Source of the DNA: Selenomonadales bacterium
Lineage (GTDB): Bacteria; Bacillota; Negativicutes; Sporomusales; UBA7701
Assembly: GCA_018434945.1 (NCBI GenBank)
Contig: JAHDOI010000035.1
Coordinates: 124,001 to 188,000 of the forward strand
DNA: 64,000 bases
Direction of reading: 5' to 3'
The translations under genes were made by a program, and so were the position numbers. A model generated the notes under the pieces. It saw only the letters and a program-made list of their open reading frames with translations. It searched no databases and was not told the DNA's origin. Shown one piece after another: positions 21,365-25,769 of this stretch. Numbering within the stretch: position 1 is the first letter of the stretch; each line of letters starts with the position of its first letter.

Positions 21365-23494
21365 ATGAGCACCGATTCCAGCAAGAACAACGGGAACGGC
21401 CGCCGCTCTAAAGGCAGGTGGCTGACTGTCGCCGCAATTGCCATTATTGTGTTTATTGTCATGATCACCGGCGCCGGTCTCGGTTTCTTGACAGCCAGCA
21501 TCCACACCATGCCCAGCCTGAAAGGCGAGATCCGTCCGGCCGCCTCTTCGCAGATTTTCGATATCAACGGCAAACTGATAACCACCATCCATTCGGTGGA
21601 AAACCGGTTGCCTGTGGCGCTTAACAAGGTGCCCAAGGATCTGCAGAATGCGTTCGTGGCTACCGAAGACGCCCGCTTTTATAAGCATATCGGTGTCGAC
21701 CCCCGAGCCATCCTCAGGGCTATTTTTGCCAATGTCGCCGGCGGCGGTGTTTCGGAGGGGGCAAGCACAATCACCCAGCAGCTCGCCCGAAACGCGCTCC
21801 TCTCCCAGGAGCAGACGCTGAAGCGCAAGATCCAGGAAGCTGTGCTGGCGATCCAGATTGAACGTCAGTATACAAAGCAGGAGATACTTGAGCTGTACCT
21901 CAATCAGATTTATTTCGGTCAGGGCGCTTATGGCGTTCAGGCGGCGGCCTGGGTTTATTTCGGCAAAAATGTGGAAAACCTCAATTTGGCCGAATGCGCC
22001 TTATTGGCCGGTATCCCCAAAAGCCCCAACTATTTTTCGCCGCTTAACAATCTCAAGGCTGCCAAAGAGCGCCAGGGTGTCGTTCTCGACCAAATGGTCA
22101 AGTACGAGTTTATTTCCCAGGATACAGCCAATAAAGCCAAGTCCGTCGAACTGAAGCTTACGTCCCGTTCGCCGGGGAGCGGCGGCGAAGCCTCGTATTT
22201 TGTCGATTATGTGACTCAGCAGCTTATTGACAAGTATGGCGCGGACGCCGTATACAAGGACGGCCTGAAGGTATATACTTCTCTCGATCTGAACATGCAG
22301 CGCGCGGCAGAAAAAGCGATGGGCAAACTGCCGACATACCGCACCGACGCTAAGGGCATTAAGCAGCCTCAGGGCGCACTGGTATCCATCGATCCGCATA
22401 ACGGCCATATCAAGGCGATGGTCGGCGGCCGCGGCACCGACCAGTTTAACCGCGCGGTGCTTGCTGAAAGGCAACCAGGTTCTGCTTTCAAACCGTTCGT
22501 TTATTTGGCGGCGATTGAAAGCGGTATGACGCCGGCAACCATTGTCGAGGATAAACCCGTTACTTTCGGCAACTATTCTCCTACTAACTACGATCATAAG
22601 TTCCGCGGCCGGGTAACGCTAAGGACAGCACTGGAGCAATCGCTCAACGTCATCGCTGTCAAACTCGCCAAACAGGTCGGCCCCGAAAAGCCGCTCTACT
22701 ACGCTCAGCAGATGGGGATTTCGACGTTGGTTACCCGGGGCTCGGTGAATGATGTCAACCTGGCTATGGCCCTCGGTGGTCTGTCGCGTGGAGTTACGCC
22801 TCTGGAACTCGCCGGCGCTTACGGCGTACTGGCCAACGGCGGCGTAAGGGTTGAGCCGACATCCATTCTCAGGGTCGTGGACAGGGTCGGCAAGGTGCTG
22901 GAGCAGCACCAGCCGCAGGCGAAGGCGGTTATTAACGAACGAAGCGCCTATATTCTGACCGACATGATGCGCGGCGTCATAACCCGCGGCACCGGCGGAG
23001 GCGCCAATATCGGCCGGCCGGCCGCCGGCAAGACCGGGACGACTAGCGATTACAAGGACGCCTGGTTCGTAGGATTCACCCCCGACCTCGTGACAGCCGT
23101 ATGGATGGGTTTCGATACTCCGGAGTATCTTAACGGCATTACCGGCGGCGATATACCGGCAACTATCTGGCATGACTTCATGACAGCGGCTGTCGCCAAG
23201 TTGCCTGCAAAGGATTTTACGCGGCCGAGCGGGATCGTTTCCGCACCGGTTTCGCCCAAGGACGGCAGTTTGGCAGATCCTAAGAGCAAGGATGTCCATA
23301 ACGAGATATTCATCGAGGGCACCCAGCCGAAACCCGGGAAAGCACCCGCCGAGGATAAGAACGGTAATAAGCCCGCTCCGGCGGACGGAGGACGGACGCT
23401 CCCCCCTCCACCGACGGCTACGAAACCCTCCGACCCCTCCCCTCCCGTCCAGCCGGCGGCACCGACGAAGCCCGAACCGCCGAAGAAGAATTAG
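21365..23494 (+). CDS. Class A penicillin-binding protein (bifunctional PBP1a-type)
   Basis: A membrane-anchored peptidoglycan synthase that polymerises glycan and cross-links peptides. The 709-residue protein has a cytoplasmic basic tail, one TM helix (about 19-42), a GT51 glycosyltransferase domain with ATEDARFYKHIGVDP and GASTITQQLARN, then a transpeptidase domain with SAFK (active Ser about 376), SLN (about 424) and KTG (about 555, AGKTGTTSDYKDAWF). The last 90 residues are Pro/Lys-rich and low in complexity. ATG at 21365 follows AAGGAGGTCGCC. It is monocistronic, with its own promoter and terminator. Confidence 0.96.
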   Translation: MSTDSSKNNGNGRRSKGRWLTVAAIAIIVFIVMITGAGLGFLTASIHTMPSLKGEIRPAASSQIFDINGKLITTIHSVENRLPVALNKVPKDLQNAFVATEDARFYKHIGVDPRAILRAIFANVAGGGVSEGASTITQQLARNALLSQEQTLKRKIQEAVLAIQIERQYTKQEILELYLNQIYFGQGAYGVQAAAWVYFGKNVENLNLAECALLAGIPKSPNYFSPLNNLKAAKERQGVVLDQMVKYEFISQDTANKAKSVELKLTSRSPGSGGEASYFVDYVTQQLIDKYGADAVYKDGLKVYTSLDLNMQRAAEKAMGKLPTYRTDAKGIKQPQGALVSIDPHNGHIKAMVGGRGTDQFNRAVLAERQPGSAFKPFVYLAAIESGMTPATIVEDKPVTFGNYSPTNYDHKFRGRVTLRTALEQSLNVIAVKLAKQVGPEKPLYYAQQMGISTLVTRGSVNDVNLAMALGGLSRGVTPLELAGAYGVLANGGVRVEPTSILRVVDRVGKVLEQHQPQAKAVINERSAYILTDMMRGVITRGTGGGANIGRPAAGKTGTTSDYKDAWFVGFTPDLVTAVWMGFDTPEYLNGITGGDIPATIWHDFMTAAVAKLPAKDFTRPSGIVSAPVSPKDGSLADPKSKDVHNEIFIEGTQPKPGKAPAEDKNGNKPAPADGGRTLPPPPTATKPSDPSPPVQPAAPTKPEPPKKN

Positions 23495-23504
23495 CAAGCA
23501 AAAA

Positions 23505-23531
23505 CACGCGCACATCGCGCGTGTTTTTTTT
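23505..23531 (+). terminator. Terminator after the PBP gene
   Basis: CACGCGC-ACATC-GCGCGTG followed by eight T residues, 10 bases past the stop. Confidence 0.93.
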
Positions 23532-23591: not shown

Positions 23592-23618
23592 AGGAACACG
23601 CACCGGCGGCGTGTTCCT
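23592..23618 (-). terminator. Hairpin after tiny gene 1 (copy 1 of three)
   Basis: AGGAACACGC-N7-GCGTGTTCCT, 15 bases beyond the tiny-gene stop. The same GGAACACGC/GCGTGTTCC arms recur after tiny genes 2 and 3 with different loops. The T-tail is poor, so it may stabilise the mRNA rather than terminate. Confidence 0.65.
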
Positions 23619-23633
23619 GTGGTAAGTACGATG

Positions 23634-23747
23634 TTAGATGGTGTCGGTGAAATCATCCTCTAAGAAGAACAGGAGCAGGATGATGATGATGATGATCACC
23701 ACGACTCCACTGCCACCGCCGCAGCCGCCGAAAAATCCGCGACCCAT
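23634..23747 (-). CDS. Tiny Gly-rich/hydrophobic membrane protein, paralog 1
   Basis: A 37-residue protein. The order is: MGRGFFGGCGGGSG, a 15-residue hydrophobic stretch of three Val, six Ile, three Leu and two Phe plus Leu, then an acidic tail EDDFTDTI. AGGAGGAG lies about 6 bases before the ATG. It is the first of three tandem paralogs (23634, 23894, 24155), all with the same layout and a Cys in the Gly-rich part. Composition resembles the YjcZ-type small spore proteins, but no homology is claimed. An upstream sigma-K-like promoter (23802-23829) suggests mother-cell expression. Single-pass membrane insertion is likely. Confidence 0.8.
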   Translation of the reverse strand: MGRGFFGGCGGGSGVVVIIIIIILLLFFLEDDFTDTI

Positions 23748-23801
23748 TCAAACTCCTCCTTCCTCGTCTACTGTCTGGTTAATATGGAATCTCTTTTAGT
23801 C

Positions 23802-23829
23802 TAATATATGGCGTTTGGCAGACATCGGT
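23802..23829 (-). promoter_or_regulatory. Sigma-K-like promoter of tiny gene 1
   Basis: Minus-strand GGTGACC, with ACC at 23829-23827, exactly 16 bases, then CATATATTA (23810-23802). This fits the AC-N16-CATANNNTA pattern of mother-cell sigma-K promoters. Confidence 0.65.
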
Positions 23830-23849
23830 CACCCTGCCGCGAAAATTTA

Positions 23850-23872
23850 GGAACACGCCGGATGCGTGTTCC
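23850..23872 (-). terminator. Hairpin after tiny gene 2 (copy 2 of three)
   Basis: GGAACACGC-CGGAT-GCGTGTTCC, 9-bp stem and 5-base loop, 21 bases past the stop of tiny gene 2. Same arms as copies at 23592 and 24111. Confidence 0.65.
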
Positions 23873-23893
23873 CGTATGGGGCAACTATTTCGG

Positions 23894-24004
23894 TTAGATG
23901 GTGCCGGTTACGTCATCCTCGAAGAAGAACAGGAGCAGGATGATTATGATGATTATAACCACAATCGATCCGCTGCCGCCGCAGCCGCCAAAGTTACGAC
24001 CCAT
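23894..24004 (-). CDS. Tiny Gly-rich/hydrophobic membrane protein, paralog 2
   Basis: A 36-residue protein: MGRNFGGCGGSGS, then a hydrophobic run of Ile, two Val, six Ile, three Leu and three Phe, then EDDVTGTI. It differs from paralog 1 mainly in the Gly-rich part. The six Ile are encoded by mixed ATC/ATA codons, not a simple repeat, so the run length is probably selected at the protein level. GGAGGGAGG precedes the ATG by about 7 bases. It has its own sigma-K-like promoter (24062-24089) and its own hairpin downstream, so it is a self-contained unit. Confidence 0.8.
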   Translation of the reverse strand: MGRNFGGCGGSGSIVVIIIIIILLLFFFEDDVTGTI

Positions 24005-24061
24005 GTTCAGTCCTCCCTCCTAGTAATCGGGTCAGGTCCATTTATCGTGGTCCCTTCAATT

Positions 24062-24089
24062 TAGTATATGGATTTGACCCAATGGCGGT
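24062..24089 (-). promoter_or_regulatory. Sigma-K-like promoter of tiny gene 2
   Basis: Minus-strand GGTAACC, with ACC at 24089-24087, 16 bases, then CATATACTA (24070-24062). Same spacing as the neighbouring units. Confidence 0.65.
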
Positions 24090-24110
24090 TACCGACGCGG
24101 CAAAATATTA

Positions 24111-24133
24111 GGAACACGCTGGCAGCGTGTTCC
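24111..24133 (-). terminator. Hairpin after tiny gene 3 (copy 3 of three)
   Basis: GGAACACGC-TGGCA-GCGTGTTCC, 9-bp stem, 21 bases past the stop of tiny gene 3. Same arms as the other two copies. Confidence 0.65.
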
Positions 24134-24154
24134 TTGAGCGGTAAGTATGGTGTT

Positions 24155-24259
24155 TTAGATGCTGACGCTTTCGTCCTCGAAGAAGAACAGAAGCAGGATG
24201 ATGATAATGATGATCACTACAAATGATCCGTTCCCGCCGCCGCAAAAACCTCTAGCCAT
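24155..24259 (-). CDS. Tiny Gly-rich/hydrophobic membrane protein, paralog 3
   Basis: A 34-residue protein: MARGFCGGGNGSF, then two Val, six Ile, three Leu and three Phe, then EDESVSI. The Cys has moved to residue 6, but the six-Ile/three-Leu/Phe core and the following Glu-Asp are kept. A GGGGGAAAG ribosome site lies about 5 bases before the ATG. Its sigma-K-like promoter is at 24349-24376. The three genes look like recent tandem duplications that have since diverged in their ends. Confidence 0.78.
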   Translation of the reverse strand: MARGFCGGGNGSFVVIIIIIILLLFFFEDESVSI

Positions 24260-24348
24260 TCGTTCTTTCCCCCTTAGTATGTCGTTATTAAGGGCGGTGC
24301 CAAGGAGTGTATGGTCAGCACCTTCAGGTACCGCCCGCCCTTCTACTT

Positions 24349-24376
24349 CAATATATGGCTGTGTATTCTAAAGTGT
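24349..24376 (-). promoter_or_regulatory. Sigma-K-like promoter of tiny gene 3
   Basis: Minus-strand GGTAACA, with ACA at 24376-24374, 16 bases, then CATATATTG (24357-24349). It lies about 90 bases upstream of the start codon. Confidence 0.6.
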
Positions 24377-24392
24377 TACCCGCGTTATGAAT

Positions 24393-24731
24393 TTAACTGC
24401 CGCCAGGCTTGACCAGCCGCCTTATTTGCCGGGGGGCTTCCGCCGCCGTTTTGAGGGATTGGGTGGCGCTGGTGAGTACTCCGGTTATGTTCCGAAGGGT
24501 ATCGATCGACGAGGTCATCGTGTCGATCCTCCGGTCCATCGAAACGTTGTTCTGGGTCAGTGCCAGCAGCACGACCATGCATTGATAGCCGAAGTCAGGG
24601 TTGCTGACTATCCTCTTGAACATTCTAAGAGGGCTGTTCTTCGTGACGGGTTTTGCCAGTTTCACGTCACCGTCCCCGCCACCGTGCGAAGGCTGCTCCG
24701 CTCTTCGTTTATCTTTTCGCTGGTTGCGCAT
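24393..24731 (-). CDS. Hypothetical 112-aa protein, sporulation-type promoter
   Basis: Not recognised. The 112-residue product has a basic, Gly-containing N-terminus (residues 1-35), a moderately hydrophobic segment (FGYQCMVVLLALTQ, about 47-60), then a predicted amphipathic helix rich in Ser/Thr/Asn and a basic C-terminus. GGGAGGAG lies 8 bases before the ATG. The promoter at 24766-24793 has the same ACC-N16-CATATATTA form as the three tiny genes, so it is probably expressed with them in the mother cell. It may be a spore-coat or cortex-associated protein; this rests on the promoter only. Confidence 0.65.
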   Translation of the reverse strand: MRNQRKDKRRAEQPSHGGGDGDVKLAKPVTKNSPLRMFKRIVSNPDFGYQCMVVLLALTQNNVSMDRRIDTMTSSIDTLRNITGVLTSATQSLKTAAEAPRQIRRLVKPGGS

Positions 24732-24765: not shown

Positions 24766-24793
24766 TAATATATGACGGTCACCTATGAACGGT
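24766..24793 (-). promoter_or_regulatory. Sigma-K-like promoter of the 112-aa gene
   Basis: Minus-strand GGGACC, with ACC at 24793-24791, 16 bases, then CATATATTA (24774-24766). Fourth member of the set. A possible divergent relative (ACG-N17-CATATAG, 24824-24850) precedes the YbaB-like gene. Confidence 0.65.
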
Positions 24794-24869
24794 CCCGCAA
24801 ATTTTATGGACACACACATGACGACGGACAACGCATAAGCTAGCATATAGTTTAGTGGAGGTGAAAGAT

Positions 24870-25190
24870 GTGTGGGAGCAGTTTGGCAACGTGATGGAAA
24901 TGGTGAAGAAGGTTCAGCAAAATGTCAGCCAGGCGGAGGAGCAGCTAAAGTCCGAACGGATTGAGGTTTCAAGCGGCGATGTGGTAAAGGTGATTGTGAA
25001 CGGTCAGCAGACGGTGGTAGCCATCGAGCTGAACGGAAAGTATCTCGAGGCTGGCAACGCAGTTTTGCTGCAGGATCTGCTCGTGGCCACGGTCAACAGC
25101 GCACTGGCCAAATCCCGGGAGATGCATCAGGCGGCAATGGGCAAGCTCGCCGGTGACCTGAACCTGCCGAACATTCCTGGGTTGTTTTAA
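24870..25190 (+). CDS. YbaB/EbfC-family protein (paralog outside dnaX-recR)
   Basis: A 106-residue YbaB-like protein: an N-terminal helix (FGNVMEMVKKVQQNVSQAEEQL), a beta-sheet part (IEVSSGDVVKVIVNGQQTVVAIEL) and a C-terminal helix with Met-rich end. The usual YbaB is a nucleoid-associated protein encoded next to dnaX and recR. Those genes are absent here, so this is probably a second paralog. The GTG at 24870 follows GGAGG by 8 bases; an earlier in-frame GTG (24855) overlaps the Shine-Dalgarno. The possible mother-cell-type promoter upstream hints at a sporulation role. Confidence 0.75.
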   Translation: MWEQFGNVMEMVKKVQQNVSQAEEQLKSERIEVSSGDVVKVIVNGQQTVVAIELNGKYLEAGNAVLLQDLLVATVNSALAKSREMHQAAMGKLAGDLNLPNIPGLF

Positions 25191-25202: not shown

Positions 25203-25769
25203 ATGGCCAACGAACCGGTAGAACGGTCCGGCTCACTGCTGCAATCGGTGGCGCGAATGATTGATGCCGCCGTTAACGACGGCACGGGCTATGAATCGCT
25301 TGTCCCTGTTCTGTCGCTGATCTGTCTGGTGTCGATTCTCAGCCACGGCCAGCCGCGGGCTGCGCAGACTGCGCCGGCAGCCGGCGCCAATACGCTGCAG
25401 AAGCTGCTCGGCGATCTTTCGAAAGGAGAGGGGGGCGGGTTGGGTCCGGAAGCACTTGTCTCCCTCCTGCCGCTTCTCAACAACCCTCAGATAAAATCCA
25501 AGCTTAATCCTGCTACCATCGGCGCGGTGATGGGGTTACTGAACAATCTGGGCGACAAGGGCGATAAGAGCGAGACAGGAAAACAGGAAGCGGCCAAGCA
25601 GGATAAGGGCGGTGACAAGGGTGATAAGAACGAAGAGAAGCGCGTCGTCACCCCCACCGCCGCTACGATGACGTCACCCGATTTGCCGGAGCGCCAGAAC
25701 CCCCACGAAGAGGCCGAGGGGGATAAGAAGGGACCGGGAAGATATCTAAACTGGAAGAGCACTTTTTGA
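25203..25769 (+). CDS. Hypothetical 188-aa protein with Gly-Asp-Lys-rich tail
   Basis: Not recognised. Residues 1-75 are helical with a hydrophobic stretch (LVPVLSLICLVSILS, about 34-48). Residues 75-115 include LVSLLPLLNNPQIKSKLNP and AVMGLLNNLG. The tail (about 117-150) is made of repeated GDKGDK units and is highly charged. AGGAG precedes the ATG by about 6 bases, and it lies 12 bases after the YbaB-like gene, so the two are probably co-transcribed. The LLNNP...LLNNLG pair is an internal repeat. A spore or DNA-associated role is a guess from the neighbour. Confidence 0.7.
   Translation: MANEPVERSGSLLQSVARMIDAAVNDGTGYESLVPVLSLICLVSILSHGQPRAAQTAPAAGANTLQKLLGDLSKGEGGGLGPEALVSLLPLLNNPQIKSKLNPATIGAVMGLLNNLGDKGDKSETGKQEAAKQDKGGDKGDKNEEKRVVTPTAATMTSPDLPERQNPHEEAEGDKKGPGRYLNWKSTF

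Follow-up and report, generated by a model that had tools for sequence, protein, structure and literature searches.

The 64,000 nucleotide stretch of DNA analysed (the window) carries on its minus strand (23592-24379) three tandem genes of 37, 36 and 34 codons, spaced at ~260 bp (Table 1), whose products, on sequence evidence, are members of an undescribed multicopy family without a model in the databases searched and probably form a small component of the outer envelope of the spore. Both the link of this family with sporulation and its regulation by sigma K are well supported by sequence, and can be considered highly probable. Sporulation has barely been studied in the Negativicutes, because its spore-formers cannot yet be manipulated genetically (PMC7985256). 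Two families of proteins, neither of which has a database model, encoded side by side at the locus described below, track the sporulation protein SpoIVA across the whole class, one of them being multicopy and falling below the usual gene-size cut-offs. Both can serve as sequence markers of sporulation in Negativicutes genomes and as targets for spore proteomics.

Table 1. Features of the small-gene cluster and its surroundings, with positions in the window
Feature	Position	Strand	Description
Class A penicillin-binding protein (PBP) gene	21365-23494	plus	transglycosylase + transpeptidase; conserved neighbour by synteny
Palindromic two-way terminator, type A	23500-23528	both ways	AAAAACACGCGC/GCGCGTGTTTTT; between cluster and convergent PBP gene
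Hairpin after unit 1, type B	23592-23618	minus	terminator-like
Unit 1 gene	23634-23747	minus	37 aa, MGRGFFGGCGGGSGVVVIIIIIILLLFFLEDDFTDTI; orthologues in relatives G001, G003, G004
Unit 1 promoter	23802-23832	minus	sigma-K-type, GTGACCGATGTCTGCCAAACGCCATATATTA
Hairpin after unit 2, type B	23849-23873	minus	terminator-like
Unit 2 gene	23894-24004	minus	36 aa, MGRNFGGCGGSGSIVVIIIIIILLLFFFEDDVTGTI; G004 protein identical, G003 94% identity
Unit 2 promoter	24062-24092	minus	sigma-K-type, GTAACCGCCATTGGGTCAAATCCATATACTA
Hairpin after unit 3, type B	24110-24134	minus	terminator-like, AGGAACACGC/GCGTGTTCCT, tail AATATTTT
Unit 3 gene	24155-24259	minus	34 aa, MARGFCGGGNGSFVVIIIIIILLLFFFEDESVSI; orthologues in relatives G001, G003, G004
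Unit 3 promoter	24349-24379	minus	sigma-K-type, GTAACACTTTAGAATACACAGCCATATATTG
MDRRID gene	24393-24731	minus	second sporulation-linked family, 112 aa, MDRRIDTMT...EAPRQIRRL; directly upstream of units
YbaB/EbfC-like gene	24855-25190	plus	conserved neighbour by synteny

Organisation of the locus

The three proteins all consist of a Gly/Cys-rich start, followed by a 15-residue hydrophobic run in which the residues are ordered V-I-L-F, and an acidic cap. Each gene is preceded by a GT[AG]AC-N17-CATA element and by a ribosome site, which is of the GGAGG type ahead of units 1 and 2 and weaker ahead of unit 3, and is followed by a hairpin 3' of the stop codon. Each unit is a monocistronic cassette, and the three units are tandem paralogues. 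The first-pass annotation of this DNA, in which three tandem self-contained units encoding proteins of 34-37 aa were described, every one of them having a promoter, a ribosome site and a hairpin, is borne out by the three verified minus-strand ORFs and by the presence of all of these parts. The span assigned to the units (23592-24376) was too short, with the promoter of unit 3 extending beyond it and the palindromic hairpin adjacent to the PBP gene lying outside it. A fourth family copy is located outside the cluster in the same genome (G000:C51).

Two forms of hairpin can be distinguished, A-tract/T-tract palindromes at the cluster end and AGGAACACGC/GCGTGTTCCT hairpins between the units. The three unit hairpins fold at -17.7, -17.0 and -17.6 kcal/mol, respectively, with 0/200 shuffles of each being as good, and only that of unit 3 passes a strict terminator scan, the tails of the other two being poorer in T. 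The palindrome, with an A tract on one side and a T tract on the other, closes the cluster and is common to it and the convergent class A PBP gene. Four AACACGC-N-GCGTGTT sites occur in the window, against an expectation of zero, and all of these are located at this cluster. Among 60 relatives, AACACGC-N3-14-GCGTGTT is found in 36 of the 44 genomes that have SpoIVA or the family and in 1 of the 16 that have neither, mostly at 1-5 sites per genome, while the reversed control gave seven sites in all 60 genomes together. A family gene adjoins the hairpin in 25/30 fetched loci, and base pairs of the inner stem show compensatory changes (e.g. G-C to A-T and T-A to C-G). Only sub-threshold matches, none near the gathering score, were obtained in an Rfam scan. 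The palindrome in the window and those in loci L137-L164 are close to AAAAAACACGCGTAAAATTACGCGTGTTTTTT, and are nearly letter-for-letter the same at this locus across the class. A tie of the hairpin to the small genes alone is ruled out by two genomes (G044 and G057) in which the small genes are missing but the palindrome is retained, flanked by the PBP and MDRRID genes, and it is better regarded as a terminator of the locus than of the small genes.

The order of the locus recurs in many families of the class, and comprises a class A PBP gene, the palindromic hairpin, one to three small genes, the MDRRID gene, a divergent YbaB-like gene and a LLPLLNNPQIKSKL gene. The proteins of the MDRRID family (110-140 aa; signature MDRRIDTMT..EAPKQIRRLL) are single-copy and have no significant match in Pfam or NCBIfam. 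They are encoded in 50/300 class genomes, all of which are positive for the small-protein family or SpoIVA, and in at least 42 of these 50 the gene is found within 1.2 kb of a small-protein family member. A CATATATTA box with C at -18 precedes the MDRRID gene in the window (~24766-24774), as is usual in that family. The LLPLLNNPQIKSKL gene of the window (25203-25769, plus strand; 188 aa), which has no Pfam match, is likewise retained next to the YbaB-like gene in further genomes of the class.

Composition, distribution and conservation of the family

Using a profile built from 28 relatives, family members could be identified in 53 out of 300 class genomes, with up to 14 copies per genome. The class is taken to be the Negativicutes, as spore genes are found in it beside many non-sporulating families. 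No significant match for the family was obtained in Pfam or NCBIfam, and none of the solved structures matches it at significance. Matches to TatA, ODV-E18, SNARE and phage proteins at E ~0.01-1 were taken as chance similarities between hydrophobic stretches. The family was likewise not found described in a literature search, which is weak evidence given that short peptides are not findable by sequence there.

The fetched loci yielded 69 distinct members, with lengths of 33-44 aa (median 36). All 69 contain Cys and carry an acidic pair behind the hydrophobic run, while Lys or Arg occurs before the run in 68/69 and after residue 25 in 0/69. The run itself comprises 13-16 residues in 67/69 members (mode 15), and its residues are sorted along its length, with mean relative positions of 0.12 for Trp, 0.20 for Val, 0.35 for Ile, 0.73 for Leu and 0.85 for Phe. 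The core of exactly six Ile, three Leu and two or three Phe, followed by (Leu)Glu-Asp, that had been annotated initially is accurate for the three proteins of the window; across the family, the Ile run varies from 4 to 9 residues (mode 6). Such sorting of the core (V, I, L, F, then acid) is uncommon, whether the core serves as a membrane span or as a self-assembling peptide, and is a design that can be tested. AlphaFold2, run on a single sequence, predicts one helix over residues 10-34 (mean pLDDT 79; pTM 0.43).

Codon-aligned orthologues within genus gave a pooled pS of 0.262 and pN of 0.045 (pN/pS ~0.17), with values in the hydrophobic core of 0.223 and 0.024, respectively; the genome pairs are non-independent and these values are descriptive, with no statistical test attached. 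By these values the orthologues are under purifying selection, and the few amino acid changes in the core accord with the initial suggestion that its conservation reflects a specific role. Together with the clustering of the AACACGC-N-GCGTGTT sites and the distribution of the family in the class, this selection argues that the units did not arise by chance. Given the six consecutive ATC codons in unit 1, the ORFs could be viewed as spurious products of an ATC/GAT trinucleotide repeat. However, two or three kinds of Ile codon are mixed in 65/68 Ile runs, synonymous changes dominate, and the frame, promoter and hairpins recur across many families, leaving this explanation with practically no probability. 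A microsatellite origin of the Ile run itself is ruled out on the basis of the mixed codons and mostly synonymous changes.

A sigma-K-type promoter upstream of the family genes

The upstream regions of the family genes were thinned to 55 dissimilar ones and scored over the interval 28-110 nt before the start codon. The motif CATANNNT occurs in 48/55 of these (shuffle mean 6.4) and CATANNNTA in 32/55 (shuffle mean 1.9). When 49 boxes were aligned on CATA alone, a -35 element was revealed at -22 to -18, consisting of G (92%), T (96%), A/G, A/G and C (96%), while the -10 element ends in A or G. The upstream regions of many genera thus yield one promoter, GT[AG][AG]C-N17-CATATATT[AG]. According to Eichenberger et al. 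(PMC517825), the -10 element is common to the sigma-E and sigma-K promoters of Bacillus subtilis, and a single -35 base, T in the former and C in the latter, tells them apart; for sigma K, spacing is optimal at 15 bp. Set against the sigma-K pattern (-10 element CATANNNTA, C at the discriminating -35 base and a 15 bp gap), the family promoters have a -10 element ending in A or G, C at the discriminating base in 96% of the 49 boxes, and the same gap as in B. subtilis, i.e. 15 when TAACA is counted as the five-base and NCATANNNTA as the ten-base element. The sigma-K-like promoter noted in the first-pass annotation is thus backed by independent evidence, since 49 of the 55 dissimilar regions yield it, and a sigma-K promoter motif for the class is now ready to use.

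A stricter form of the pattern has 18 matches in the source genome, against 8 for the reversed control, and these include all four family copies. Other matches in this genome (L117, L120, L121, L124 and L132) precede Cys-rich, repeat-rich or coat-like ORFs, which look like coat proteins and may be candidates for the spore coat, although this is an impression and not a family assignment. A full-length sigK is present in the source genome. In the relative G001, sigK is apparently split into two pieces on the same strand, ~51 kb apart (C1:2173284-2173742 and 2121548-2121814), which cover profile positions 4-157 and 138-226, as with a skin-like element. Similarly, the relative G002 has a separate C-terminal sigK piece (C80:52418-52684), beside which a family gene is located (C80:53023).

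Co-occurrence with SpoIVA

SpoIVA (TIGR02836) was used as sporulation marker over the same 300 class genomes and is matched in 52 of them. The presence of the family and of SpoIVA agrees in 295/300 genomes, with both found in 50 and neither in 245; 50/53 family-positive genomes thus have SpoIVA and 245/247 family-negative genomes are without it (Fisher's exact p ~1e-50, phylogeny ignored). The family is found without a SpoIVA match in three genomes (G017, 65% complete; G085, 83%; G061, 93%) and SpoIVA without the family in two (G020, 72%; G045, 87%), and among these five only G061 exceeds 90% completeness. This near-perfect match, along with the sigma-K-type promoter, upholds the connection with the spore that had first been proposed from the three units. 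It also bears on the type I toxin modules, in which small hydrophobic toxins are encoded by tandem units, each equipped with a promoter and a terminator. The search for an antisense RNA antitoxin covered Rfam, with no match near a gathering score. While the tandem, self-contained arrangement of small genes with hydrophobic products would fit such modules, the sigma-K-type promoters, the restriction of the family to sporulating genomes, its fixed chromosomal locus and the absence of a match in the libraries searched render them highly improbable here.

Proposed role at the outer forespore membrane

In the explanation that we favour, to which we assign about an even chance, the family comprises sigma-K-dependent, late mother-cell, single-span proteins which would serve at the outer forespore membrane as anchors or building material of the coat. 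Expression would take place late in the mother cell, under sigma K, in spore-forming Negativicutes. We infer membrane insertion, topology, location, multimerisation and a coat role as follows. The protein would insert into the membrane without a cleaved signal and with its N-terminus in, an orientation favoured by the positive-inside rule, since Lys/Arg occurs before the core and not after residue 25. The basic Gly/Cys-rich head would then remain in the mother cell, on the coat side of the outer forespore membrane, while the V-I-L-F-graded core would span the bilayer and the Glu/Asp cap would lie on the cortex side. Late mother-cell expression, taken together with the basic head, span and acidic cap, suggests this location and a head directed towards the coat, while the presence of several similar copies, all with transcription of their own, points to a structural component that is needed in bulk. 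Many copies placed side by side, with cysteines able to cross-link, may thus anchor or build the innermost coat.

A hydrophobic run with a mode of 15 residues is short for a bilayer, and this argues against a span. It is also a point in favour of the main rival explanation, self-assembly without membrane insertion, where the proteins would be surfactant-like peptides with a hydrophobic tail and an acidic head that form fibrils or sheets within the coat. Designed peptides with a hydrophobic tail and a charged head self-assemble, the 15-residue run is rich in beta-branched residues, an acidic head is present in every member, and a genome may hold up to 14 copies. Against such assemblies stand the predicted helix and the placement of a basic residue ahead of the core, with no such residue beyond it, a pattern resembling topology control. 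Self-assembly is considered unlikely.

A holin-like or membrane-loosening role late in the mother cell, by which the spore would be freed from the two-membrane cell, can also be envisaged. Diderm sporulators have been argued in a review to need extra players for degradation of the outer membrane (PMC7985256), and the late mother-cell promoter, as well as the limitation of strong family matches to this diderm class, would be in keeping with such a role. However, small Gly-rich proteins of a similar kind are also present elsewhere in the Bacillota and the phage lysis families yielded no significant match (best E 0.018), and we regard a function in envelope release as improbable.

In a more novel reading, the locus as a whole may represent a class-wide, undescribed module of two-membrane sporulation. 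The locus (PBP, V-I-L-F micro-proteins, MDRRID family and YbaB-like protein) would be fixed in spore-forming Negativicutes, and the sigma-K-controlled micro-proteins would give the outer forespore membrane its shape or a coat, in a manner special to spores in which this membrane becomes the outer membrane on germination. This reading is considered unlikely.

Comparison with known small proteins

SpoVM is a tiny mother-cell protein that anchors SpoIVA and works at the outer forespore membrane, as the present family would, but it is an amphipathic surface-binding helix of a different sequence and is single-copy. In the genome of another member of the Bacillota, three tandem small genes (L087:1280-1600) with differing Gly-rich starts each end in NEWLVFIILLLL(I/V)CCND, and thus share the overall design of the present family but differ in the core. 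A set of small Gly-rich proteins from other Bacillota (alignment A3, e.g. MAQAQSGFFFGSWALILFLILILLFFGDN), for which there is no Pfam model, has in common with the family a head rich in Gly, an aliphatic core, FF and an acidic terminus, but lacks both the R..C..G pattern and the six-Ile block. Profile-profile comparison of the family with A3 gave a probability of 97.5% over 25 columns, although low complexity can inflate such scores. As A3 aligns better by profile than YjcZ, the wider kind may be old, with uncertainty again arising from low complexity.

The yjcZ gene of B. subtilis belongs to the sigma-K regulon (PMC517825). YjcZ proteins (PF09680, YjcZ_2) are, like those of the present family, tiny, with a Gly-rich start, one hydrophobic span and several copies per genome (up to eight for YjcZ), and sigma-K control is likewise shared, for the present family by promoter sequence only. 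The YjcZ core is FALIVVLFILLIIVGA, in which VLFILL is invariant and no acidic cap follows, whereas the present family has an I-L-F block (IIIIIILLLFF) and an acidic cap, and does not contain VLFILL-I followed by G-A/S. None of the 28 family members was listed by PF09680 at E values up to 10, while all 12 YjcZ proteins from other Bacillota used as positive control matched it at E ~1e-14, which rules out membership of the YjcZ family. The curated cut-off of PF09680 (21 bits) was reached in 0/60 relatives, and hhalign aligned the family with YjcZ over 15 columns only (probability 78%), in agreement with the first-pass annotation, where the resemblance was attributed to composition only. By analogy, the family may work like YjcZ, as far as YjcZ is known, without being a member of it.
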